The notes below the pieces were generated by a model that was not told the origin of the DNA, made no database searches, and worked only from the letters and a program-made list of their open reading frames with translations. From IMG/VR virus record IMGVR_UViG_3300032093_000206, positions 1-49,241 of that record: a stretch of DNA of 49,241 nucleotides; one strand, 5' to 3'. Positions 10,413 to 39,647 of this stretch are shown in pieces. Every line of letters begins with the position of its first letter. The first letter of the stretch is position 1. The translations under genes were made by a program, and so were the position numbers. Origin of the DNA: a virus.

Positions 10413-11225
10413 ATGGCAACATACGATGCTTCGGGCATAATTTACGCAAGGGTAAACGCTAACAACACCCAGATTGCAACATCGCCTGATGGTTACAATA
10501 ATAATCAGGCCATTACTGATGCAATTGAAGCCCCAACAATTGCCGATGGTACGTTTGGGTCTATGACAACGGTTGGCACTCAAACCGAAATAACCGGAAC
10601 AAACAGTCCAGCATTTAACACTGATTTTAATATTAGTGATTATGTGTATTGGATTGACAACACTGGAACACCAATCCTTCTTGGACAAGTAGCATCATTT
10701 GTTGTTGGATATGAATCAAGCAAAATGCTCCTTACGGGGATTGCGTCTTCAACACCGGTTGGGAACCCATTGCTTGGCGGAAGCAACTACCTGATTACGG
10801 CAAGCGAGTCTGTATACATCCGTATACCAACAGTTGCTGCATCAAGCACTGCCACGCAGATTCCAAACTTTGCTTTCTGGAGACAGTCAAATGGATACAA
10901 CATAACTTCTGTAAGCAAGCTGGAACAGTATAGCACAATTGGTAGCCCGCTTCAGATATTTACTCCGGCTCCACAAAACGTAAGTTTTACGATTCAGGTA
11001 ATGAACGTGTTTGTGCCTATAACATCGGCAAACAATACATATTGGAGCAGCGCAGATGCGTTTCCTCAATACATCTGGGCAAGACTTACTCCCGTTAGCA
11101 ATTCTTCCTCTGCTTTAAGTAGCCAAACAATGTATAAGTGGTCAACTCAGGAATTGCTTGAGGGCATCACTATTACAGCAAACTTTCCGCAAGCGTCTTT
11201 GGTTGCAGCTGGATATTCATTTTAA
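10413..11225 (+). CDS. Virion structural protein, paralog 2
   Basis: 270 residues, tandem paralog of the preceding gene: the same N-terminal signature, the same beta-rich core (ITGTNSPAFNTDFNISDYVY then LLGQVASFVVG), and matching C-termini ending in AAGYS. It lacks the polyproline tail. Sequence divergence is considerable, so the duplication is old and the two copies probably have separate places in the particle, for example heteromeric rings. Confidence 0.75.
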   Translation: MATYDASGIIYARVNANNTQIATSPDGYNNNQAITDAIEAPTIADGTFGSMTTVGTQTEITGTNSPAFNTDFNISDYVYWIDNTGTPILLGQVASFVVGYESSKMLLTGIASSTPVGNPLLGGSNYLITASESVYIRIPTVAASSTATQIPNFAFWRQSNGYNITSVSKLEQYSTIGSPLQIFTPAPQNVSFTIQVMNVFVPITSANNTYWSSADAFPQYIWARLTPVSNSSSALSSQTMYKWSTQELLEGITITANFPQASLVAAGYSF

Positions 11226-11232
11226 GTAAAAC

Positions 11233-12126
11233 ATGGCTTGGTATTCCGCATTTACACGAACCGGAGGAATAAGCAACGCCTTTATTTCGACAACCGGGAG
11301 ACAAACATTATTTGTATGTGGAGGCACTTATAGTGCTTTCACTGCAATAACTGGTGGTCAAGTATACTTTAACTCGGCAGGAATTGCTGTGGTATTTGCT
11401 GCAACAACTCAAAATGCTGTATACCCGGTAACTGGCGGCATAAGCAATGCTTTTACAACCACCGTCCAGCCGCCTCCTGCTAAACTGCTACGCCTTCAAA
11501 TTGGAGATTTTGTCCTTAACACGGACTACACATCAATAGATATAGCAGACATTACGGGAGAATATAACGCAACAACAAATCCTTATGGCTATACGCCAGC
11601 GGGAGACCCGTATGATCCAAATCGTCCTCGCAGAAGCGACCTAAGACTTTGGACTATCTATCGCATTATAACATCTACTACATCAACAGATTTCCAGTTT
11701 CCTACTTCTCAAGCAGAACAATCTGATCCTGTGTATGTATATTCTCTTACCATCCCGGAAAGCGGTGTATACGATTTGGTAATGATTGGTGCGCCAGATG
11801 CCGAAGACTATGCAAATTGGCAACAACCCAATTTGTTTGATTATGCCAATAGTCAGGACAACTGGTTTGCGACATCTCAATGGATGACCATTGACCCAGT
11901 TCTTGATGTTTGTCTTATTAACTACAGATGGGCGTTTTTAGAAAGTGTTATGTGCGGCAATTGCGACACTTCATACTTGGCTTTCTATGCCGACTACGTT
12001 GCGTTGTTTTATGCCAATCAAGTTCAAAACCAAGCAGTATCTGATGCTTTGTATAAAAAGTTAACGGCATTCTGTAGTGGAAGCAATTGCGGCTGCTGCG
12101 GGTGCTATTCACAATATTCCTGTTAA
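11233..12126 (+). CDS. Structural protein with internal repeats and Cys-rich end
   Basis: 297 residues. The N-terminal 80 residues contain imperfect repeats of a Gly/Ser/Ala-Phe-Thr-Thr unit (GGISNAF occurs twice, about residues 11 and 68), probably a beta-solenoid-like or adhesive element. The central part (about 85-200) is a mixed beta domain. The last 25 residues hold six cysteines (CSGSNCGCCGCYSQYSC), which could bind metal or form disulfides. The next gene starts 2 bases after the stop. Probably a neck or fibre-attachment protein. Confidence 0.7.
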   Translation: MAWYSAFTRTGGISNAFISTTGRQTLFVCGGTYSAFTAITGGQVYFNSAGIAVVFAATTQNAVYPVTGGISNAFTTTVQPPPAKLLRLQIGDFVLNTDYTSIDIADITGEYNATTNPYGYTPAGDPYDPNRPRRSDLRLWTIYRIITSTTSTDFQFPTSQAEQSDPVYVYSLTIPESGVYDLVMIGAPDAEDYANWQQPNLFDYANSQDNWFATSQWMTIDPVLDVCLINYRWAFLESVMCGNCDTSYLAFYADYVALFYANQVQNQAVSDALYKKLTAFCSGSNCGCCGCYSQYSC

Positions 12127-12128
12127 CT

Positions 12129-15100
12129 ATGTCATTTTTAGATAATCTTCCCGTCTACAGTGGTCGTGCAGCCGATGCAATCATAGAGGCATCGTTGTGC
12201 TGTGATTTTGAAAAGGTGAATCTGTATTCATCCTTGCTTGCCACGGCTGAAGACACAACTCTTAGCAATGACATAAGACTATTTGCACTCACCGCTCTTA
12301 TTAACGCGGCTGATTTGCTGCGTGAGGCTGCTGGGCCAATAATGCTCAGGTCGATATCGTACAGTCCAACGGTTGCGTATACAGGGTTTCACAATGACCT
12401 TGATGGGCTGAACGATGGAACAACATATCTCCATGTAACCTCTGGGCAAATATCATATTGGGACAGCAAGGCAGACAGCAGCGGTGTTTCGTTTGCTTTG
12501 TTGCAGGGCTTACCAAGCGACAACGCACTATTGCAAGCGGCTTTGGATGCGAAACAGAATCTGCTTCCAAACGGGGTCGGCTTTATAAAGGTGAATGGAA
12601 CAGCGGTAAGTGTTGACACCAATACATACCTCACTTCTGTTACCGGGGCTGCGGGTGGCGATCTTACAGGAACCTACCCCAACCCAACCATTACATCCAC
12701 AACCATCCTGTCCAAGGTTCTTACGGGATTTAATCCGAGTGCCGCTGCCGGGTCTATTACATCAAGCAGCACAATACTAAGTGCGCTTGAAAAGCTAAAC
12801 GCAAACATCAATGCCGTAAGCGCATCTGCTGGCACGGTTACGAGTGTGAGCCTTACGTTGCCAACAAGCGTATTCTCTGCTGCGGTGGGGCCGTATACAA
12901 CAACTGCCGCATTAAGCTTAAGCTTTATTAGCCAAACTCAGGGCAGGGTGTTTGCCGCTCCAAGTGGTAGCAATGGAACTCCTTCGTTTAGGGCTTTGGC
13001 CGCAACAGACCTCCCGGTTGTTGGCTCTGTAACGCCCGGAACATATTCTTTGTCTACGGTAACTGTAGATGCATATGGCCGGGTTACAGGAATTGCTTCA
13101 GGGTCTGTTGTTGGAACAGGCACTGTGACAAGCGTTGGTATCAGCCCTCCGGTACAGTTTTCAGCCGGGAGCGCGGTTACAACTGCTGGCAATCTAAGCT
13201 TTGCATGGGCCTCAAATGCAACCCCTAATCTTGTATTTGCTACACCAGCATCTGCTGGAGGTGTACCTACTTTTCGTGCGCTTACTTCTGCGGACATCCC
13301 AGATATAGCTATTAGTCAAGTAACAAATCTGTCTAATGTATTAGGCGGATATTTACCAAATGCTTTGGCTAATAATATGCTTTTTATAGGCAATACAGGA
13401 AGTAATGTTCCGGTAAATGCAATTGTAACAGGCGACCTTACCGCTCTCTATGTAGACAACAACGGAACCAACGAAGCGGAGTTTACGATAGCAAACGAAG
13501 CGGTAACCTATGCTAAAATACAGAATGTTACCGCTCAAACCCTGCTTGGTCGTTTTGCTTTAACTGATGGAGTAATACAGCAACTCACTCTAAATGCTTC
13601 TGATTTTACCATTAATAGCGGGAATGGGGAGATAGGTCTTGTAACACCTAATTCTCCCATTTTAACAACCAAGGGCGATTTATTAACCTATACGGGGGCA
13701 GCACAAACCCGCCTTGGAATTGGGGCAAACGCCACTTTGTTTATGGCCGATGCAACAACTGCAACAGGAAACAAATGGGTGGCTATGTCGGGTGATGCAA
13801 CAATTGCAACATCTGGCGCAATCACTATTGCCAACAATGCTGTAACGCTGGGCAAAATGGCTACAGTTACCGGGCCGACAATTTTGGGTAACCAAAACTC
13901 CGGTGCTGGGCTAGGTGTTTTGGCAATGACCGGCACTCAAGCCGCCACTATACTTCCTACTTTTTCAACAGCAAACACTGACAAGGGGTTAGTAGTTGGT
14001 AGCAATGGTGTTGGGGCTACATACTTCTTAAATGCGACAGGCGGCTGGTCCATCCCGGCAGGAGGTGGTGGCGGAGGCGGAACCGTTACATCGGCCAGTC
14101 AGTATAGCATTCCGTATTACTCAGTAAGCCCAACTGGCACGACAGTAATTGGTCTTGCCCCGCAAACAACTAACGGCATATATTTCCTTCGGGCAAATGT
14201 AACGGCAAGTGCGGCTGTTGCTCCTTCATGGATTGGAAGTACAGGAAGCGGGGATGTTGTACTTGCTACAAGTCCTACGCTTGTTACGCCTACATTAGGA
14301 GCGGCATTAGCCACTTCAATCAATAAGGTGGCAATAACAGCTCCTGCGACAAGTGCTACGCTTACACTTGCCGATGGTTCTACGCTTGCCACATCAGGAG
14401 CGTTCAGCACCACGCTGACAGCAACAGCAACAACGACATTAACGCTTCCTCCATTAACGGCCACCCTTGCCACGCTTGCATTAACGGAAACCCTGTCTAA
14501 CAAAACTTTACTCACTCCCGTAATAGGAGACGGGGGGACTAATGGACACGCTCACTTCCGCAAGTCCTCAGGTGCTGTTGGTATAAACAATTATGCCACA
14601 TTGTTCTTTCAGGAATCGGGCGGAGATAGAAGGATGTCTGTGATTTGGGATAATGATGGATACCAGTCAGAGTTCCTTTTTAAAGCCACGACATCAACAA
14701 AAACTTATACGCTCCCTGACGCAAGCGGTACGGTGACATTGAACCCAATGACCGCAGTGGGGGATATTATATACGGAGGAACTGTTACGGGAGGAGTTGC
14801 TGCTCCAACAACGCTTCCAATAGGTACTGCCAACGAAGTGCTTGCTGTGTCTGCTGGTGGCCTCCCAGAGTGGAAGACAATAGCGGCAGGAGGAGATGTA
14901 ACAGGCCCATCAAGTTCCGTGGATGGCAACTTTGCCGTATTTGATAGCACAACAGGAAAGATAATTAAGGAAAGTGCTGGTGCGTCCCTATCAGCAGCAG
15001 GAGCGGCAGTGTTCAACACTTCCGTTTCCGTGGGGGTGTCAGGCGCAACAACTGGGCAATTGATTTTCTTTAATGCAACAACTTCCGCCACAACAACATT

Positions 15101-33129: not shown

Positions 33130-33279
33130 CTACTTTAACAGCTTATCGGCATAGTCCATTGCAAACTTTTTGTAGGCATAGAAAAATCCAAAGGATATTA
33201 TTGCCAACACATACCAGTTGCCCCAGAACAAATAGAACAGCACGGCGTTTACAACGCCTAAAAACAAGAGTCCTTTCAT
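33130..33279 (-). CDS. Small two-TM membrane protein, 49 aa
   Basis: Short gene easily missed. Starts MKGLLFLGVVNAVLFYLFWG, with two adjoining hydrophobic helices (about 3-18 and 20-36) and a basic/polar C-terminus (YKKFAMDYADK). Its ATG overlaps the upstream stop (ATGA), implying coupling. Last gene of the minus operon. Could be a membrane-acting accessory such as superinfection exclusion, but nothing proves it. Confidence 0.7.
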   Translation of the reverse strand: MKGLLFLGVVNAVLFYLFWGNWYVLAIISFGFFYAYKKFAMDYADKLLK

Positions 33280-33590
33280 GGCTGTACGGGGCTTAATTTA
33301 AGCTGTTTCACAAATTCATGTCTACACTTATAGCACAAGAAATTTGCTTCAACATATGCGGGATATTGCAGCACTTGCAATGCGTCCTTTTTTACAAAAT
33401 TATTCATTACAACGGATGAGGTGTTACACTTCGGACATTGCACCAAATCAGAGTCTGGTTCCAACATTTGGACCGCCTGATTGAAGCCCTCTACAAAGCT
33501 TTCTTCGCTCCAGACTGCACCCCCGACAGAATGGTTTTTGGAGAGGTTTTTTGAAACCTCCCCGTATTTGCTTATTTCCCGCTTAGTCAT
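33276..33590 (-). CDS. Zinc-ribbon protein, 104 aa
   Basis: Two CxxC pairs, QCPKCN (about 50) and LCYKCR (about 86), make a probable zinc ribbon, with a helical N-terminus (FVEGFNQAVQMLE). Overlaps the next upstream gene by 8 bases. Likely nucleic acid or protein binding. Family not identified. Confidence 0.6.
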   Translation of the reverse strand: MTKREISKYGEVSKNLSKNHSVGGAVWSEESFVEGFNQAVQMLEPDSDLVQCPKCNTSSVVMNNFVKKDALQVLQYPAYVEANFLCYKCRHEFVKQLKLSPVQP

Positions 33591-33978
33591 TGTCTTTAAA
33601 GAAAATTATTGCGGGTGGTCTGGATAGGGCTTCTGATGCCCACGCAACGGCATCCTGCGGGCTTATCCATTTAACTAAGGCTTCTACATCGGCCACAGCC
33701 GAAACAGCATCAACACTTTCGCCCTCTTCGTCAGAATTGATTAACACGACATTCCCGCATAACGGGTAGTCCCAGTCTGGCATAATGAATGCACCTTTTA
33801 TTTCGTCTTGCAAAAGGGCTTCATCATCTGCAAACATCATGTCCCCGTTCGGCAAAGCCACGGGGCAGCAAAAGGTTGTGCATCCATTCCCGATCAGCGG
33901 GTAGATTTCACGAAAATCTTTCCCGATCTGGGTTTCGTATACGGTTTGTTTTTCAGAGTCGATTACAATTACTCTCAT
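33583..33978 (-). CDS. DUF3846-like protein, 131 aa
   Basis: MRVIVIDSEKQTVYETQIG start, a hydrophobic segment around CTTFCCPVALPNGDMMF, and PLCGNVVLINSDEEG resemble DUF3846 proteins found near plasmid and phage accessory genes. Acidic overall. It is preceded by tRNA-like element A with an A-rich leader. Role unknown. Confidence 0.55.
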   Translation of the reverse strand: MRVIVIDSEKQTVYETQIGKDFREIYPLIGNGCTTFCCPVALPNGDMMFADDEALLQDEIKGAFIMPDWDYPLCGNVVLINSDEEGESVDAVSAVADVEALVKWISPQDAVAWASEALSRPPAIIFFKDND

Positions 33979-33999
33979 TTTACATTTGTTTTAAAAATC

Positions 34000-34064
34000 T
34001 ACGCATTATTGCGTATTGAAGCACGGGTGGGAGTCGAACCCACCCTACGACCATTATTCGTGCC
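34000..34064 (-). ncRNA. tRNA-like RNA element A
   Basis: On the minus strand: a stem GCACG...CGTGC, a T-arm-like hairpin with loop TTCGACT (stem 34025-34031 with 34039-34045, 7 bp), then the hairpin ACGCA-ATAA-TGCGT (34001-34014). The element begins at the stop codon of the upstream gene and its hairpin ends 22 bases before the ATG at 33978. It lacks D and anticodon arms, so it is not a normal tRNA. Sister elements are at 35138, 35970 and 37486. Confidence 0.7.
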
Positions 34065-34327
34065 TATTCGCTCACCAGAACGGCATCACGCCCGTCCTGA
34101 TGGTCACTTTCATACCATTCATCATCATCTTCGATTTCCTCCCATTCGGTCCAATAGATTGCGTCTTCATCCAATGCATCTTCAATGTTGGCATATCCGT
34201 TTTCGATTGCCCATTTTTCGGCTTCGGTTTCGCTTTTGATATACATGACACCGTCACCTATTACCCACCCCTCATTCATGCCCTCATTGCTTACATCGCA
34301 CCTACGGGCAAATTTGAATTTTTTCAT
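34064..34327 (-). CDS. Acidic small protein, 87 aa (ARRCD family type)
   Basis: ATG at 34327. Begins KKFKFARRCDVSNEGMNEGW, which I recognise from a small protein common in Bacteroidota phages and mobile elements, followed by a strongly acidic half (WEEIEDDDEWYESD). An anti-defence DNA-mimic role is possible on charge grounds but unproven. Confidence 0.6.
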   Translation of the reverse strand: MKKFKFARRCDVSNEGMNEGWVIGDGVMYIKSETEAEKWAIENGYANIEDALDEDAIYWTEWEEIEDDDEWYESDHQDGRDAVLVSE

Positions 34328-34340
34328 TTTACGTTTTGTT

Positions 34341-34841
34341 TTATGATTTAAAAAAGTCTGTATACAAAGTTTTGTCTTCCACCCATTTGGACGGGGCAGG
34401 GAATACAAGCCATTCAAGAGCATTTTCAATTGCTTCCTGAACCGTGGGTGTTTTTTCCCAGTCTTTAAAATATACTTTGCCTTCAGCAAGCTGTTCCCAG
34501 ATGTCCTTATCCGTATCGCATTCATTCAGGCTTTTGCAGAAAAAATTTGTTACAAAATTTTCTGGGGTTTTGTAGCACGATGCAACCCCGCCCTTTTCCG
34601 TAATGATTTCGAATGAGTCGGTATTGTATACAACCCTATATTTCAGGGTGTCCCCGTATTCCTTAACATTTAAGTCTATTGAGTGCAAAACGGTTTCCCC
34701 GTTTTTTTGGTCTGAAAAATGGTCCACCAAGTTGATGTCCAATCTTTCGTGATTCATGAATACGGAAACTGGCACATTTTCAAGAGAGCCATAAAGGTCT
34801 CTGAGGGCCAGTAGTTCGTTGAATAATTCTTCTGCTGTCAT
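34341..34841 (-). CDS. Hypothetical protein, 166 aa
   Basis: ATG at 34841 is chosen because it follows the stop of the preceding gene (34843) almost at once; upstream in-frame starts would overlap it heavily. Starts MTAEELFNELLALRDLYG, mixed fold, ends near a Trp/Pro segment. No family recognised. Confidence 0.55.
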   Translation of the reverse strand: MTAEELFNELLALRDLYGSLENVPVSVFMNHERLDINLVDHFSDQKNGETVLHSIDLNVKEYGDTLKYRVVYNTDSFEIITEKGGVASCYKTPENFVTNFFCKSLNECDTDKDIWEQLAEGKVYFKDWEKTPTVQEAIENALEWLVFPAPSKWVEDKTLYTDFFKS

Positions 34842-34842
34842 T

Positions 34843-35118
34843 TTAGTAATTGAATAAAGGTGCTGATACAAGTTTAAATTCTTCAAAGACATCAGATTCG
34901 GGCGTTTCTCCGTATAAGACAAACGTATACGACCTTTCTTCTTCAAGAGGGTGGTCAAAATCCTGCGGGTTTGTTAACGAGCAAGCGCAATCAAAATATT
35001 CAGAGACGGCTTTTTCCATTGCAAAACTTGCAAGTTCAGTTGAATAAAATGTGCCAATTACTTCGCCAAATTCGGTTTTCAAAACCGCCACATAATTTTC
35101 TTTCAAAACTATTTTCAT
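34843..35118 (-). CDS. Hypothetical protein, 91 aa
   Basis: Preceded by tRNA-like element B. Starts MKIVLKENYVAVLKTEFG, mixed alpha/beta. No family recognised. Confidence 0.55.
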   Translation of the reverse strand: MKIVLKENYVAVLKTEFGEVIGTFYSTELASFAMEKAVSEYFDCACSLTNPQDFDHPLEEERSYTFVLYGETPESDVFEEFKLVSAPLFNY

Positions 35119-35137
35119 AAAATTGATTATATAATTC

Positions 35138-35200
35138 TACGCATTATTGCGTATTGCAGCACGGACGGGATTCGAACCCGCCCTTTCGACCTTCATGCTG
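35138..35200 (-). ncRNA. tRNA-like RNA element B
   Basis: Minus-strand 7-bp acceptor-like stem CAGCAUG/CGUGCUG (35194-35200 with 35157-35163, one wobble), a linker AAGGTCGAAAG, a T-arm-like hairpin with loop TTCGAAT (35163-35169 with 35177-35183), then hairpin TACGCA-ATAA-TGCGTA (35138-35153). It begins 9 bases after the upstream stop (35210) and ends 19 bases before the ATG at 35118. Confidence 0.7.
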
Positions 35201-35209
35201 TTTAGTTGT

Positions 35210-35488
35210 TTAGCGGACAACCACCGCCTTTATCATGGTTCCAGATACTGGAGATAATATTACAATCGTATCAGAGGGTTTGTATGTGGTATCCAGTTCT
35301 GCAACGTATACCAAGCTAACCCCAGACAAGGGGCGTATAACCCGCCTTGCAATCGCAGAGGTAGTGTCTACTTTGGTGGTGGTCACCTTGGTTTCTCTGG
35401 ATGAAACAAACTTACTCACGCCCCTAATTAAGAGGCAAATCGAAAGGGTTGCCGTAAAAACGGCTAACCCTATACCTAAATCTTTCAT
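35210..35488 (-). CDS. Single-pass membrane protein, 92 aa
   Basis: N-terminal membrane helix (about 5-24, IGLAVFTATLSICLLIRGV), then a Thr/Val-rich beta domain. Its start overlaps the next upstream gene's stop. An inner membrane or secreted accessory role is likely. Confidence 0.55.
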   Translation of the reverse strand: MKDLGIGLAVFTATLSICLLIRGVSKFVSSRETKVTTTKVDTTSAIARRVIRPLSGVSLVYVAELDTTYKPSDTIVILSPVSGTMIKAVVVR

Positions 35489-35949
35489 GCGTTGTTTTCG
35501 GTTTTAGCGGCCTCTCTTTTTGCTTTCCATTCCTCTGAGTTCTTCAGAGACTTTTCCCTTGTGAAAGCAAAGTATATTGCCTTGTGTTCATCCAGAAACG
35601 AATAGCGATTGCCTTCGCCAATATCTGTCATTGCATCGTATTCCGCTTCGGTAATCCACTTTACTGGGAATTCTGTATACGCATAGTGGTCATGCGGCTG
35701 TCCGTCTGGGCTAACCCCTATAACCTTATACACCACCCCAGAATGAAACCCGCCATGTTTATAGTGTTGGGTTGCTGTGGCTTTATAGCTACGGCTGTTG
35801 GTCACCTCATTAAACTTGTCCGCAAGTGCTACGGCTTCTTCCAAGGTCTGGCAGAAACCTTCACGGTTTGTGAGAACAAAGAACCCCAATCCGTCAGCTA
35901 CGTTGTGACAGATTGAATAAGAGTAAGTGCTGTTTTTGTCTGTTGACAT
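35485..35949 (-). CDS. Hypothetical protein, 154 aa
   Basis: ATG at 35949 (MSTDKNSTYSYSICHN) is preferred because an upstream in-frame start falls inside tRNA-like element C. Tyr/His-rich centre (HGGFHSGVVYKVIG) and a basic C-terminus. No family recognised. Confidence 0.55.
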   Translation of the reverse strand: MSTDKNSTYSYSICHNVADGLGFFVLTNREGFCQTLEEAVALADKFNEVTNSRSYKATATQHYKHGGFHSGVVYKVIGVSPDGQPHDHYAYTEFPVKWITEAEYDAMTDIGEGNRYSFLDEHKAIYFAFTREKSLKNSEEWKAKREAAKTENNA

Positions 35950-35969
35950 TTTTTTGTTGATTAAAACTC

Positions 35970-36032
35970 TGCGGGATATTCCGCATTGCAGCACGGACGG
36001 GAGTCGGACCCGTCCTTACGACCTTCGTGCTA
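35970..36032 (-). ncRNA. tRNA-like RNA element C
   Basis: Stem AGCACG/CGTGCT, linker AAGGTCGTAAG, perfect 7-bp T-arm-like stem (35995-36001 with 36009-36015) with loop TCCGACT, then the hairpin TGCGG-...-CCGCA (35970-35985). This last stem differs in sequence from the other copies but keeps pairing (compensatory change). Abuts the upstream stop at 36033; the hairpin ends 20 bases before ATG 35949. Confidence 0.7.
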
Positions 36033-36290
36033 TTAAATCCTGACAATAACTACTTTCACATATTCCCCTCTTCTTTTTGAGGGGTATGAATGCGGGTGGT
36101 TTGGCATATTGTTATATGTAATTGTTATGGTGTCACCCGCCTTAAACAAATGTTTGTGCAGGATTTCTGCGTAGTAGTTACTACCACTCTCACGCACTAC
36201 CACCCCTGAATAATTTGGGGCTATCGGCTCTTCATATTTTGAGCATGAAAACAACCCGATTGAGAATAAGACAAATAGTATTTTTTTCAT
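36033..36290 (-). CDS. Small lipoprotein, 85 aa
   Basis: Signal peptide MKKILFVLFSIGLFSCS with a lipobox cysteine at residue 16 (LFSC), so processed and lipid-anchored. The mature part is a Tyr/His-rich beta segment with a basic C-terminus. Phage lipoproteins often block superinfection or mask receptors; here this is a suggestion only. Confidence 0.7.
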   Translation of the reverse strand: MKKILFVLFSIGLFSCSKYEEPIAPNYSGVVVRESGSNYYAEILHKHLFKAGDTITITYNNMPNHPHSYPSKRRGEYVKVVIVRI

Positions 36291-36295
36291 TTTTT

Positions 36296-36526
36296 CTATG
36301 GTTTAAAAGATTTCATTTCTTTGATGCTCTGACCTGCATACTCTGGCCTTGTATACCTTTCGCCTTGGATTGTATACAAAGGATGCAACCCGATGTGGGT
36401 GCGAACAAATGCCGCCCCCGCAGGAGCCGTCTCTGGATAAAACCCCTCAGCAAAGTAGGTGTTGATTGGCGGGAATCCGTATAGTTCTCTTTTGCCGTCA
36501 ATCATGGCATAAAATTTCATTTTCAT
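36296..36526 (-). CDS. Hypothetical protein, 76 aa
   Basis: Soluble, Gly/Pro/Tyr-rich (GFPPINTYFAEGFYPETA). Overlaps its upstream neighbour by 4 bases. Unknown. Confidence 0.5.
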   Translation of the reverse strand: MKMKFYAMIDGKRELYGFPPINTYFAEGFYPETAPAGAAFVRTHIGLHPLYTIQGERYTRPEYAGQSIKEMKSFKP

Positions 36527-36804
36527 ACAATTGCTATTTTTTTGATATAATTCTTTACTTCATTTGGCAGCACCTTAAACGGGATTTCTTTGCCTAAATG
36601 GCCCTGCATTCTGGCTTCCCAACAGAACTCAAATTGAGTTTTGCCCCGCAAATCGGTGGTTGTTCCCGCATATATACCAAAGCCCTTTGCGGGGTCTGTG
36701 GGGGTTTCATTTGCTCCATACACAGAACCGTCCGTAAGGATGATAGTATAGCGGTCAATTGTTTGACCGCCATTGTCGAAAATTGTTGCTCCCAGTCTTT
36801 TCAT
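36523..36804 (-). CDS. Hypothetical protein, 93 aa
   Basis: ATG at 36804 (MKRLGATIFDNGGQT) is used because the upstream in-frame start runs into the preceding gene. Beta-rich, with GSVYGANETPTDPAKGFG. Unknown function. Confidence 0.5.
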   Translation of the reverse strand: MKRLGATIFDNGGQTIDRYTIILTDGSVYGANETPTDPAKGFGIYAGTTTDLRGKTQFEFCWEARMQGHLGKEIPFKVLPNEVKNYIKKIAIV

Positions 36805-36805
36805 G

Positions 36806-37033
36806 TTAATTATAGTTAATATGATGATCTGCAATTAGCCATGCAGCTGCATTGCTAACAGCCACCTGACAGCCCACAATCTGAATGAGTTGATATGTAG
36901 ACATTCCGTCTTCTTTGTACGCCTCAAAAAAGGCATCTGCCTCAATTAGGGTTTCCAAAAAACCGCTGCCTTTTGGCAATGCTTCTTTTTTGATTCTACT
37001 TACGTGGAAGTCACTAAATCTTTTCTGTACCAT
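36806..37033 (-). CDS. Hypothetical protein, 75 aa
   Basis: Helical, basic N-terminus (MVQKRFSDFHVSRIKKEA), alanine-rich end. First gene after the 37,034-37,257 control gap, so likely the first gene of a sub-operon. Unknown function. Confidence 0.5.
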   Translation of the reverse strand: MVQKRFSDFHVSRIKKEALPKGSGFLETLIEADAFFEAYKEDGMSTYQLIQIVGCQVAVSNAAAWLIADHHINYN

Positions 37034-37077
37034 TTTTTTGATTTGTGTTAAATGTTTTTTGCAATATCATTTGTTTA

Positions 37078-37085
37078 CAAAATTA
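37078..37085 (-). promoter_or_regulatory. -7-like box TAATTTTG
   Basis: Minus-strand TAATTTTG, 44 bases upstream of ATG 37033, with no clear TTG box. The gap 37034-37257 also holds a 7-bp inverted repeat ATAAGAC-gaaag-GTCTTAT at 37118-37136, possibly an operator, and a terminator. Confidence 0.4.
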
Positions 37086-37191
37086 CAGACCATGTTATTG
37101 GATAAACGGTTAATTTAATAAGACGAAAGGTCTTATGATTAATGCGAAAGGCTAAATTTAAGGATAATGGTTTTCACAATTGGATGTATAC

Positions 37192-37214
37192 AAAAAACCC
37201 CGCAAAAAGCGGGG
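37192..37214 (-). terminator. Strong intrinsic terminator flanked by GTATAC
   Basis: CCCCGC (37198-37203) pairs with GCGGGG (37209-37214); on the minus strand a T6 run follows. Both sides carry a GTATAC palindrome, extending possible pairing. It ends the 39,647-37,258 unit. Confidence 0.85.
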
Positions 37215-37257
37215 CTGTATACACGGGGGTGCGGGGTGCTATAGGTTTTCAGAAAGA

Positions 37258-37449
37258 TTATTTCTTTTCTTGTTGAATTGTCAATTCAGCTAATAGCAAA
37301 CTGATAATAGGCATTAAGGCGTTTGCTGTTTGAATGCAGCCGGTTTCGTAATCGTTTTTATCTGTTTGTTCCATTCCGTAATATTCACGAAATGCTTTGA
37401 ATTGAGGGTCAGCTAAAATTAAATCGACCGGAATACTGATATTTGTCAT
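37258..37449 (-). CDS. Small hypothetical protein, 63 aa
   Basis: Preceded by tRNA-like element D. Helical C-terminus (ALMPIISLLLAELTIQ) and an acidic middle. Unknown function. Confidence 0.5.
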   Translation of the reverse strand: MTNISIPVDLILADPQFKAFREYYGMEQTDKNDYETGCIQTANALMPIISLLLAELTIQQEKK

Positions 37450-37485
37450 GTTATTAATGGTTTAAAAATTTGTTAAAATAAAACT

Positions 37486-37566
37486 ATACGCATCATTGCG
37501 TATTGCACCCGCCAAGGGATTCGAACCCTCTTTGCCATGTATCTGGCAAACCACCAAGGAGCGGGC
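37486..37566 (-). ncRNA. tRNA-like RNA element D (D-arm-less)
   Basis: Minus-strand 7-bp acceptor-like stem GCCCGCT/GGCGGGT (37560-37566 with 37507-37513), a 9-base linker CCTTGGTGG in place of a D arm, an anticodon-like arm TTTGCC-AGATACAT-GGCAAA (8-base loop), essentially no variable loop, a 5-bp T arm with loop TTCGAAT (37514-37530), then hairpin ATACGCA-ATGA-TGCGTAT (37486-37503). The closest of the four to a tRNA, but lacking a usual D arm and CCA. Confidence 0.7.
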
Positions 37567-37571
37567 TTTTT

Positions 37572-37600
37572 GGGGGCTATACAGCAGCCCCCAGTTTTTT
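37572..37600 (+). terminator. Antisense terminator-like hairpin at 3' end of minus gene
   Basis: GGGGGCT (37572-37578) pairs with AGCCCCC (37586-37592) and is followed by T6 on the plus strand, within the minus-strand coding end. May stop antisense transcription. Confidence 0.4.
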
Positions 37601-38368
37601 CCTCAATCCCTCTTTGACAAATTCAGATACATTCTGGCCTTTCGGCATGAATTCTACAGAGGGAATAACAAGTCTTTTCCCGTCATCAACATACTCTGGC
37701 GGGCGTTGGGAGCAGCCACAGCTATTGAAATGCAATGTGGCCCAACTGAACCAACATACACGGTAAAAGCAAAGGTGAAACCTTGCACCAAGTGTTGCAG
37801 CCGACAACACCTGACCCTCTTTTAAAATTTCAACTTGCAGGGTTTCGTATTTGCCCCCAGAAAAGCTATTGTAAAAGAGGGCCGTCAGGGTCACTTGGTT
37901 TCCCGCATTCTGCAACGCCCTTATACAATTATACACCTCATCCGCGTGTTTCTGCTGACTTTCGGCAGATATCCCGCCAGTAACATTCATCATAGCTGCC
38001 AAATGCACCGTAGGTGTTGGTTGTGGGTCGAATACCATGTTGTACATGGATTCGGGTTCGCCTCTTAAAAATGCCGCCACATCAGGAAACTGGCCCACCA
38101 CAGCACGTTCCATGTATACGGTGTTGGTGTCTGCCATGAATGTCGGCATTTTGACAAGTCCTGCGGGTGGGATGTAGCCTTCTTTCTGGATTTTCAAGGC
38201 TTCAGCAACAGAACCAACGGAATAGAACCGTTGGTCACTTTCTGGCTTCTGTAAGTGCGAACCTTGCTGCATGGCAATCCGCAGAAAGTCTGCTGTAGAC
38301 ACCTTTGCGGTATACATCGTAGTATATCCGTCTGGCTGTGCTGCTTTGAAATGTTTGTGCTTTTCCAT
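37577..38368 (-). CDS. Hypothetical protein linked to AAA+ ATPase
   Basis: 263 residues, starting 4 bases after the ATPase gene. Segment FYSVGSVAEALKIQKEGY recalls a domain seen next to CobS-like ATPases in phages (possibly DUF7192). A cysteine-rich patch (CFYRVCW ... NSCGCSQ) lies at about 200-220. The pairing suggests an ATPase-partner system. Assignment is weak. Confidence 0.55.
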   Translation of the reverse strand: MEKHKHFKAAQPDGYTTMYTAKVSTADFLRIAMQQGSHLQKPESDQRFYSVGSVAEALKIQKEGYIPPAGLVKMPTFMADTNTVYMERAVVGQFPDVAAFLRGEPESMYNMVFDPQPTPTVHLAAMMNVTGGISAESQQKHADEVYNCIRALQNAGNQVTLTALFYNSFSGGKYETLQVEILKEGQVLSAATLGARFHLCFYRVCWFSWATLHFNSCGCSQRPPEYVDDGKRLVIPSVEFMPKGQNVSEFVKEGLRKKLGAAV

Positions 38369-38372
38369 ATTA

Positions 38373-39647
38373 CTAAATGCGGGATAAGATTTGGTATTTC
38401 ACATCCTCTGAAACCGCCCCACGAAAGAGCAACATATCTAGCACATCCGATTCGCTGAAACCTGCTGCAAGCATCTTTTCGCCTTTAATAGACAAACGGG
38501 GTGTCACAGCCAGTTCATCCAATCCCAGTTCTGCAACAGCGGCCCGTATACGTTGAACCTTTGCGGTCCAATCCCGATTGGATGTTATATTACGTTCGAA
38601 GTCTTCATCGATAGGCCAATGCATAAAAGCAAACCTATCTTGGAAAGCACTATCCATTCGAACCCGCCCGCCAAACTGGGCTGTTCCACCTTTCCCGTTT
38701 GTGTTGCCCGCTGCAACAGCTACGAAGTCGGGATGTGCTTTGAATACGCCGTCAGGAAATGCACAAATGCCGTTTTCGATAGCCGTGTTAAGGGCTATAC
38801 CAACATTGGCGTTCGCACTATCTGCTTCATCGATGAAGTATACACCTCCATTCAGGAATGCCCTTTTGAAGTTCGTTTCGGTACATTTACCACCCGCGTC
38901 AACAAAGCCCAAAAAGTCTGTTTTGGTGGATGTAAGGCCAACTACCTCCAGAACGAATGGCAAGCCTAGTGCTTCGGCTGCTTTCATAGCTGAGGTTGTT
39001 TTTGATGTACCCGCAGGACCGTATAGGTATACGGATTGTCTCATCGAAAGGGCTTTCAGCAAATCTGGAAATTTACGGTGAAACTGGCCCTCCATAGTGC
39101 GGGTTGGCATTTCAGGTATAGTGATCTCAATACCCCGATAAAAGCCACCCGCACCAATCACCTCTGCCACTATACGCCTTACAGCATCTTCATCGACACC
39201 TTGTTTCGGCATCAGAGCAGAAAGGGCTGCCAGAGCAGCAGAAAGTGCTGCTGTGTCTGGTGTTGGTTGTGCGGGTTGTGCTGCTGCTGCTTCTGTATAC
39301 GTTGGTTCTGCTGTATACGTTGGTGTTTCTGCTGCGGGCCTTGTTGGTTGTGACCCCGTCACAACATTAAAGCCCCCTCTGGCAATATGTCTTTCCAGAC
39401 ATACAGACCCAGACTGGGTTGCAGGGCATGTAATCAATTGCCGCCCCTCTTTGTCAGGTGCTATCCATTTGCTGTAATAAGCATTAATGTGGGCTATCAG
39501 ACTTCTGTAGTCTGAAGGGCTAGACAACCTTTTGTCAAGAATGTCTCTGGCATCTGGACTTGCTGCTTCATACATACGTGACCAGTAATCTGCTGCGGAT
39601 TCACCCTTAAGGGGTGCTGAGAAATGATATAAGGGATTGATTCCCAT
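38373..39647 (-). CDS. MoxR/CobS-type AAA+ ATPase
   Basis: 424 residues. N-terminal 100 residues form an accessory domain, then an Ala/Pro/Thr-rich linker (about 100-145). Walker A GPAGTSKTT at about 210-218, Walker B VYFIDEADSAN at about 270, a GNTNGKGG loop and DSAFQDRF follow the CobS/MoxR chaperone pattern. Such ATPases remodel partner proteins, often a vWA or CobT-like protein; here the co-transcribed 37577 protein is the only candidate. First gene of its minus operon. Confidence 0.8.
   Translation of the reverse strand: MGINPLYHFSAPLKGESAADYWSRMYEAASPDARDILDKRLSSPSDYRSLIAHINAYYSKWIAPDKEGRQLITCPATQSGSVCLERHIARGGFNVVTGSQPTRPAAETPTYTAEPTYTEAAAAQPAQPTPDTAALSAALAALSALMPKQGVDEDAVRRIVAEVIGAGGFYRGIEITIPEMPTRTMEGQFHRKFPDLLKALSMRQSVYLYGPAGTSKTTSAMKAAEALGLPFVLEVVGLTSTKTDFLGFVDAGGKCTETNFKRAFLNGGVYFIDEADSANANVGIALNTAIENGICAFPDGVFKAHPDFVAVAAGNTNGKGGTAQFGGRVRMDSAFQDRFAFMHWPIDEDFERNITSNRDWTAKVQRIRAAVAELGLDELAVTPRLSIKGEKMLAAGFSESDVLDMLLFRGAVSEDVKYQILSRI

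Follow-up and report, generated by a model that had tools for sequence, protein, structure and literature searches.

The IMG/VR record IMGVR_UViG_3300032093_000206, a stretch of 49,241 nucleotides (nt) that was analysed whole and is called the window here, carries a minus-strand operon of small genes (33130-38368) with four transfer RNA (tRNA)-like elements, E1 to E4, in gaps between its genes. Portal, terminase and primase/helicase families place the window among the tailed phages and, as distant relatives of its primase/helicase occur mainly in phages of Flavobacterium, Cellulophaga, Maribacter and Tenacibaculum, a member of the Bacteroidota is its presumed host. No DNA match to the operon was found among named phages. 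The elements, as read from the sequence, are:

37487-37566, minus strand: E1. Acceptor-like stem GCCCGCT (37560-37566) / GGCGGGT (37507-37513), 7 base pairs (bp); middle of 29 nt with GG and a 7-bp extra arm; T-arm 37514-37530, loop TTCGAAT; discriminator-like base 37506; CAA 37503-37505; hairpin 37487-37502; fold z-score -3.17
35968-36031, minus strand: E2. Acceptor AGCACG / CGTGCT (6 bp); linker AAGGTCGTAAGG; T-arm 35997-36013, loop TCCGACT; discriminator-like base 35989; CAA 35986-35988; hairpin 35970-35985, then GA; fold z-score -2.45
35136-35199, minus strand: E3. Acceptor AGCATG / CGTGCT (6 bp, one G-U); linker AAGGTCGAAAGG; T-arm 35165-35181, loop TTCGAAT; discriminator-like base 35157; CAA 35154-35156; hairpin 35138-35153, then GA; fold z-score -2.26
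33998-34064, minus strand: E4. Acceptor GGCACG / CGTGCT (6 bp, one G-U); linker AATAATGGTCGTAGG; T-arm 34027-34043, loop TTCGACT; discriminator-like base 34019; CAA 34016-34018; hairpin 34000-34015, then GA; fold z-score -2.35

A preliminary description of this DNA had reported four such elements on the minus strand, and they were found where it had placed them. In all four, read from 5' to 3', an acceptor-like stem and a linker lead to a T-arm whose T-loop has 7 nt; the 3' acceptor strand comes next, then one discriminator-like base, CAA, a hairpin, GA in most, an A/T-rich stretch and ATG. As in tRNA, acceptor and T-stem stack on each other and together measure about 12 bp. The linker contains GG at the site of the D-loop residues G18-G19 and lacks a D stem. 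In tRNA the GG pair of the D-loop contacts the T-loop, and through the linker GG this elbow contact could form without a D stem.

The placement of the elements also agreed with the earlier account. They begin 10, 1 and 10 nt from the upstream stop codon (E1 to E3) or overlap its TAG by one base (E4), and their hairpins end 37, 20, 19 and 21 nt before the start ATG; in E4, a first ATG is directly followed by a stop codon and the real start codon is the one 21 nt 3' of the hairpin. Every gap in the operon longer than 40 nt holds an element except 37,034-37,257, while genes without an element between them mostly overlap or lie a few nt apart.

That the elements are not ordinary tRNAs, as had been proposed, was borne out: ARAGORN found neither a tRNA nor a transfer-messenger RNA (tmRNA) in the window, and both the D stem and an encoded CCA are absent. 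E2 to E4 have no anticodon arm and do not form the complete cloverleaf of a tRNA gene. No Rfam family reached its gathering score in the window, with tRNA below threshold and tRNA-Sec matching only weakly (21 bits). The T-arm region is tRNA-like, but the window copies are heavily reduced; some relatives have a D-arm-like hairpin, GCCGAGAGGC. The tRNA-like domain of tmRNA shares acceptor, T-arm and a stemless D-loop with the elements, and their T-arms match the tmRNA model weakly. Unlike tmRNA, the elements (each shorter than 85 nt) have no tag-encoding messenger part and no encoded CCA, and they are sited in operon gaps. No hammerhead core (CUGAUGA...GAAA) with three stems was found in the window. 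What was found is an acceptor stem stacked on a T-arm, kept by covariation and located at the boundary between messenger RNA (mRNA) coding units, as in the t-elements discussed below.

The full composite of T-arm, complementary acceptor and N-CAAT occurs four times in the window, compared with 11 times in 50 simulated windows (about 0.2 each). A looser composite of T-arm and acceptor without N-CAAT occurs six times, which is not above chance (simulated mean 3, maximum 10), so that the whole composite is required. All four elements fold better than shuffled sequences (z-scores from -3.2 to -2.3). Further features of the operon are:

37577-38368, minus strand: gene of 263 amino acids (aa), upstream of E1
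37571-37593, minus strand: hairpin enclosing the upstream stop codon (TGGGGGCT..TAG..CCCCCA), just 5' of E1; fold z-score -6.1
37034-37257, minus strand: long gap without an element, with the terminator-like sequence GCCCCGCTTTTTGCGGGGTTTTTT
34064-34327, minus strand: gene of 87 aa, upstream of E4

The terminator that had been described in the long gap is matched by this terminator-like hairpin. The same gap contains a TAATTTTG box resembling a Bacteroidota promoter, and based on these two features the transcript may stop and restart there.

Homologues and covariation

Pattern scans recovered one nearly identical phage (a contig of 59,181 bases) and four that were clearly distinct: G002 with nine elements, G003 with eight, G004 with two and G005 with three. 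A generic pattern (T-arm, 7-11 nt, CAATGC...GCAGA) gave 66 viral and 32 genome stretches; 51 distinct T-arm-bearing copies, a few of them genuine tRNAs, were left after a structure filter. Candidates L005 and L006 were rejected as chance pattern matches and ordinary tRNA-Lys genes. The copies lie mostly between co-directional genes of Bacteroidota-type phages. The T-arm and the CAA-hairpin belonged to the search pattern, but acceptor complementarity, the GG linker, ATG spacing and gene context did not and are therefore independent evidence.

The structure test and the covariance model built for it (R1) used 13 minimal copies from diverse other contigs and none from the window. In a MAFFT alignment of all 21 first elements the variable arm had thrown the 5' acceptor out of register, and the model was therefore built from minimal copies only. 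The proposed structure pairs 96.9% of cells in these copies, compared with 39-55% for slid versions. All six acceptor pairs and three of the five T-stem pairs changed on both sides, none of 500 shuffles reached the covariation score, and RNAalifold returned the identical structure when none was supplied. Homologues that keep the pairing, on which the preliminary description had made its reading depend, are thus present in other contigs as copies with compensatory changes.

The covariance search that had been suggested as a check recovers the window copies and has matches in related contigs. The four best R1 matches in the window are the four elements (E-values of 8e-7 for E4, 1.7e-5 for E2, 7.9e-5 for E3 and 0.043 for E1); for E1, which has an extra arm that the model does not contain, only the 3' half is matched. 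With an E-value limit of 0.02, R1 marks 24 places in related contigs, including some of the copies on which it was trained. Only two of 296 Bacteroidota genomes have a match, so that the element is not a housekeeping feature of the host. DNA similarity searches with single elements found no close copy in any cultured phage; they gave weak tRNA-like matches in Streptococcus, Mycobacterium and other phages, and a 95% relative of the L043 element in an unannotated human gut contig.

Across the copies, the anticodon arm and D stem are dispensable, and a graded series leads from full tRNAs through forms with reduced arms to armless ones. Such a series would suit tRNA genes in decay, or decoys for host tRNA-cutting defences. 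Strong compensatory evolution speaks against decay, a decoy for anticodon nucleases would have no anticodon arm to offer, and neither idea explains the fixed placement before ATGs, making this a very improbable account of the elements.

Several other structures were observed among the collected loci. A tRNA-like class with the acceptor GGGCACT...AGTGCCC (L043, L099, L101, L126), found in Bacteroides-type gut contigs and genomes, stands directly 3' of a strong terminator-like hairpin with a T run. Two minimal tRNA-like sequences with CAA-hairpins lie in a contig assigned to Clostridia by binning (L082:3508-4087), which either comes from a phage of a different phylum or was wrongly binned. In Bacteroides ihuae and viral contigs, a tRNA-Leu-like RNA (L128:1420-1560, also L015, L036 and L077) with an apparent 8-nt anticodon loop, CCTAGTGC, and an odd extra arm is followed by the same CAA-hairpin; possibly it is an expanded-loop tRNA. 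The operon of G005 has further gap structures (L119:10499-10570, 10950-11007, 11600-11660, 11945-12000 and 12400-12460), closed by outer stems of 6-9 bp, with non-standard T-like loops (CCGG-AGCGATR-CCGG; GCC-TTCGAT-GGC; TCCA-TCGAA-TGGA) and a CAA-hairpin in some but not in others. These are either divergent tRNA-like elements or unknown RNAs.

Placement in operons and other occupants of the same gaps

Of 47 non-tRNA copies, 79% have their first ATG 17-26 nt 3' of the hairpin, compared with 12% after shuffling. Co-directional placement was defined by two open reading frames on the same strand, each of 40 codons or more, one that ends no more than 70 nt upstream and one that starts no more than 70 nt downstream; it holds for 53 of 81 tRNA-like copies and for 12% of random positions. 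A stop-codon hairpin like that at E1 lies 5' of many copies, including several in G002 and G003. In three phages an element follows the same gene (the 263-aa gene of the window, G002_2 and G003_3), whose proteins are only 26-46% identical. In the window this 263-aa protein (phrog_1909) adjoins an AAA ATPase (phrog_249; pair at 37577-39647), and the pair also heads the operon in G002 and G003.

Copies within one phage have a common acceptor sequence (TCCGGA in both G002 and G003), as would be seen after duplication, and the genes between elements are small and variable. Perhaps, then, the elements are tRNA-like DNA repeats for attachment or shuffling that spread gene cassettes, comparable to integron attC sites or tRNA attB sites. 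We regard this as very doubtful in view of the fixed start-codon distance, the co-directional gaps, the recurrence of an element after the same gene in such divergent phages, and the hammerheads and true tRNAs that take the same role; in addition, no attC core sites (RYYYAAC / GTTRRRY) were seen by eye in the four elements.

Self-cleaving hammerhead ribozymes occupy the same series of gaps in the operon of G005, one of type III (Rfam Hammerhead_3, 42 bits, E-value 3e-6, below gathering) and one of type I with a perfect core. A perfect-core scan of 1.24 Mb of loci, collected mainly for tRNA-like elements or as their neighbours, gave 17 matches versus none in five shuffles, and Rfam Hammerhead_1 exceeded gathering at three loci. 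Contigs picked by the hammerhead alone comprised 30 stretches, of which 11 were already in the tRNA-like set; in the reciprocal check, R1 had matches in three of the 19 new contigs. All nine pairs of a hammerhead and a tRNA-like element in one locus are on the same strand. The hammerheads start at or beside the upstream stop codon (often GGTTAACTGATGAG), and 30 of 35 lie between co-directional genes, compared with 8% of random positions. Although they have no CAA-hairpin, a short fixed distance of 15-35 nt, mostly 19-23 nt, separates their cut site from the ATG. Two or three type I hammerheads were also observed in consecutive gaps of single phage operons (L129, L132, L135, L136, L146), for example at L129:2409, 2812 and 3048, where each begins at a stop codon and has its cut site 15-35 nt 5' of an ATG.

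These ribozymes bear on the possibility that the elements are stability caps and nothing else, i.e. structured gaps that block exonucleases or internal cuts like REP (repetitive extragenic palindromic)-type elements, with the tRNA look as a convenient stable fold. Many elements are indeed flanked by hairpins on both sides. A self-cleaving ribozyme would be a poor replacement for a pure cap, and if only a generic stable stem were needed, lineages whose stem sequences are unrelated would not all have kept T-loop, GG, a stack of about 12 bp and one base 5' of CAA, so that we consider this reading improbable.

Complete tRNAs are found in the same slot. In L053, two tRNA-like elements and a tRNA-Arg(TCT) (70.9 bits) are all followed by the same CAA-hairpin, with an ATG 20-21 nt further on. 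In Cellulophaga phage phi38:1, a tRNA-Glu(TTC) stands 7 nt beyond the stop codon of a relative of the 87-aa gene that precedes E4 (51% identity over 59 aa), and a further 20 nt separate this tRNA from the next ATG. A second, identical tRNA-Glu precedes another gene of the same operon; both lie 20-27 nt before ATGs and lack the CAA-hairpin, while the remaining tRNAs of phi38:1, another tRNA-Glu included, are clustered elsewhere. ARAGORN also calls a putative tmRNA with an unusual long tag in this phage (L167:26805-27164, minus strand). A more distant relative of the 87-aa gene (28%, E-value 2e-8) is followed by a hammerhead in L136. A three-way replacement of tRNA-like element, hammerhead and tRNA-Glu after this gene family is suggestive and no proof, as 18 other relatives have no element after them. 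The upstream-gene pair of L136 and L042 was not used as evidence for replacement because its homology is only N-terminal.

Hosts of the Bacteroidota type make little use of Shine-Dalgarno sequences. This sparing use, the tight spacing of 20 nt between hairpin and ATG, and the conservation of the hairpin along with the tRNA-like part would all fit a tRNA-mimic leader that stays uncut and raises or times downstream translation in cis, for instance by binding a tRNA-binding protein or by keeping the start region open. Such a leader leaves the hammerheads and complete tRNAs in the same gaps unexplained, and the hammerheads and the phi38:1 tRNAs keep the short fixed distance to the ATG even without a CAA-hairpin. 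An uncut leader is therefore unlikely.

A proposed model of cleavage punctuation

Enzymes that process the 5' and 3' ends of tRNA read the acceptor/T-arm stack, the T-loop, the GG and the base before the 3' flank, whereas the anticodon and D stem are the parts needed for translation. The elements have kept the former (T-loop, GG, a stack of about 12 bp, one base before the 3' flank) and lost the latter. Taken with the self-cutting ribozymes in such gaps, this makes punctuation by excision the simplest explanation of the elements; we consider it likely that they mark cleavage sites in a polycistronic phage mRNA. Among the roles that the preliminary description had offered, processing is favoured by two independent findings, the genuine tRNAs in the same slot, which must be excised to work, and the self-cleaving hammerheads. 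Stability capping is probably the other half of this device, in which the CAA-hairpin would become the 5' end of the downstream mRNA.

In the nascent RNA each gap would fold into a minimal tRNA that cannot decode, in which the acceptor stacks on the T-arm and the GG, a remnant of the D-loop, makes the elbow. Host RNase P would then cleave on the 5' side of the acceptor stem, and RNase Z on the 3' side of the discriminator-like base; both could accept the elements because they read acceptor, T-arm and elbow and not the anticodon. Excision would divide the transcript into short mRNAs, each with a single gene or a few that are translationally coupled. The downstream mRNA would start with CAA-hairpin-GA and have its start codon about 20 nt beyond, and the upstream mRNA would end just past its stop codon, often in a hairpin around it; the hairpin at 37571-37593 is proposed as such a 3' cap. 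Related phages have a self-cleaving hammerhead or a complete tRNA in such gaps instead. The hairpins at the resulting ends may be protective, and the benefit could lie in this end protection or in independent translation or decay of each segment. On balance, we also lean towards a broader form of this proposal, in which Bacteroidota phages have a dedicated system of tRNA punctuation: armless pseudo-tRNAs, evolved for the tRNA-end enzymes only, would be excised to give hairpin-capped mRNAs with a standard leader of about 36 nt, and would be exchangeable with hammerheads and real tRNAs.

Several observations weigh against excision. Encoded CCA helps many bacterial RNase P enzymes, and the elements encode none; the acceptors of E2 to E4 are only 6 bp. 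Many copies have no upstream stop hairpin (mean z-score -1.6), the L043 class sits 3' of a terminator-like hairpin, and the relatives of the 87-aa gene without an element were noted above. The conservation of the CAA-hairpin among the loci found is not independent, as it was part of the search pattern. Finally, both the cuts and the enzymes that would make them are inferred from sequence.

Relation to known systems

In the polycistrons of animal mitochondria, excisable functional tRNAs between genes define mRNA ends. While animal mitochondria thus punctuate with functional tRNAs, the phage operons mostly contain non-decoding look-alikes, with real tRNAs as occasional substitutes. Closer in form are the t-elements of plant mitochondria, tRNA-like sequences at mRNA ends that have no encoded CCA and are not aminoacylated (PMC11658184, citing Forner 2007 and Hanic-Joyce 1990). 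Both kinds are tRNA-like, lack an encoded CCA and lie next to mRNA ends, predicted ones in the phages. A genome contains few t-elements (eight are annotated in Arabidopsis; PMC11658184), which are organellar homologues of tRNA, whereas a phage can have up to nine of the elements described here, mostly armless minihelices with a 3' CAA-hairpin, a fixed start-codon distance and a predicted cleavage.

Hammerheads occur in intergenic regions of phages and prophages, where tandem ones are active in native polycistronic RNA, and in halovirus HF2 a mapped transcript 5' end lies within 3 nt of the hammerhead cleavage site (PMC3088659). Hammerheads are cleavage modules between phage genes, as proposed here for the elements, but they self-cleave and are not tRNA-like. 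RNase P cuts operon mRNAs of E. coli and the C4 antisense RNA of phages P1/P7 (listed in PMC11143913). These substrates likewise resemble tRNA but are single cases and not a repeated dedicated element. Among the open-access papers searched, we found none that describes armless tRNA-like elements recurring along phage operons, and none on hammerheads and tRNA-like elements alternating in one operon. While the principle is known in organelles and hammerheads are known in phages, the repeated phage version, with its putative cleavage, appears to be new.

If correct, this would mean that organelle-type tRNA punctuation also arose in bacterial viruses, from minimal tRNA mimics. Phage hammerheads, whose purpose has been described as unknown, would gain a role that can be tested, that of an equivalent module for cutting. 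It would also become possible to test directly the minimal substrates that RNase P and RNase Z of the Bacteroidota accept in vivo. For the version with real tRNAs, phi38:1, which is cultured with Cellulophaga baltica, would offer a laboratory system.

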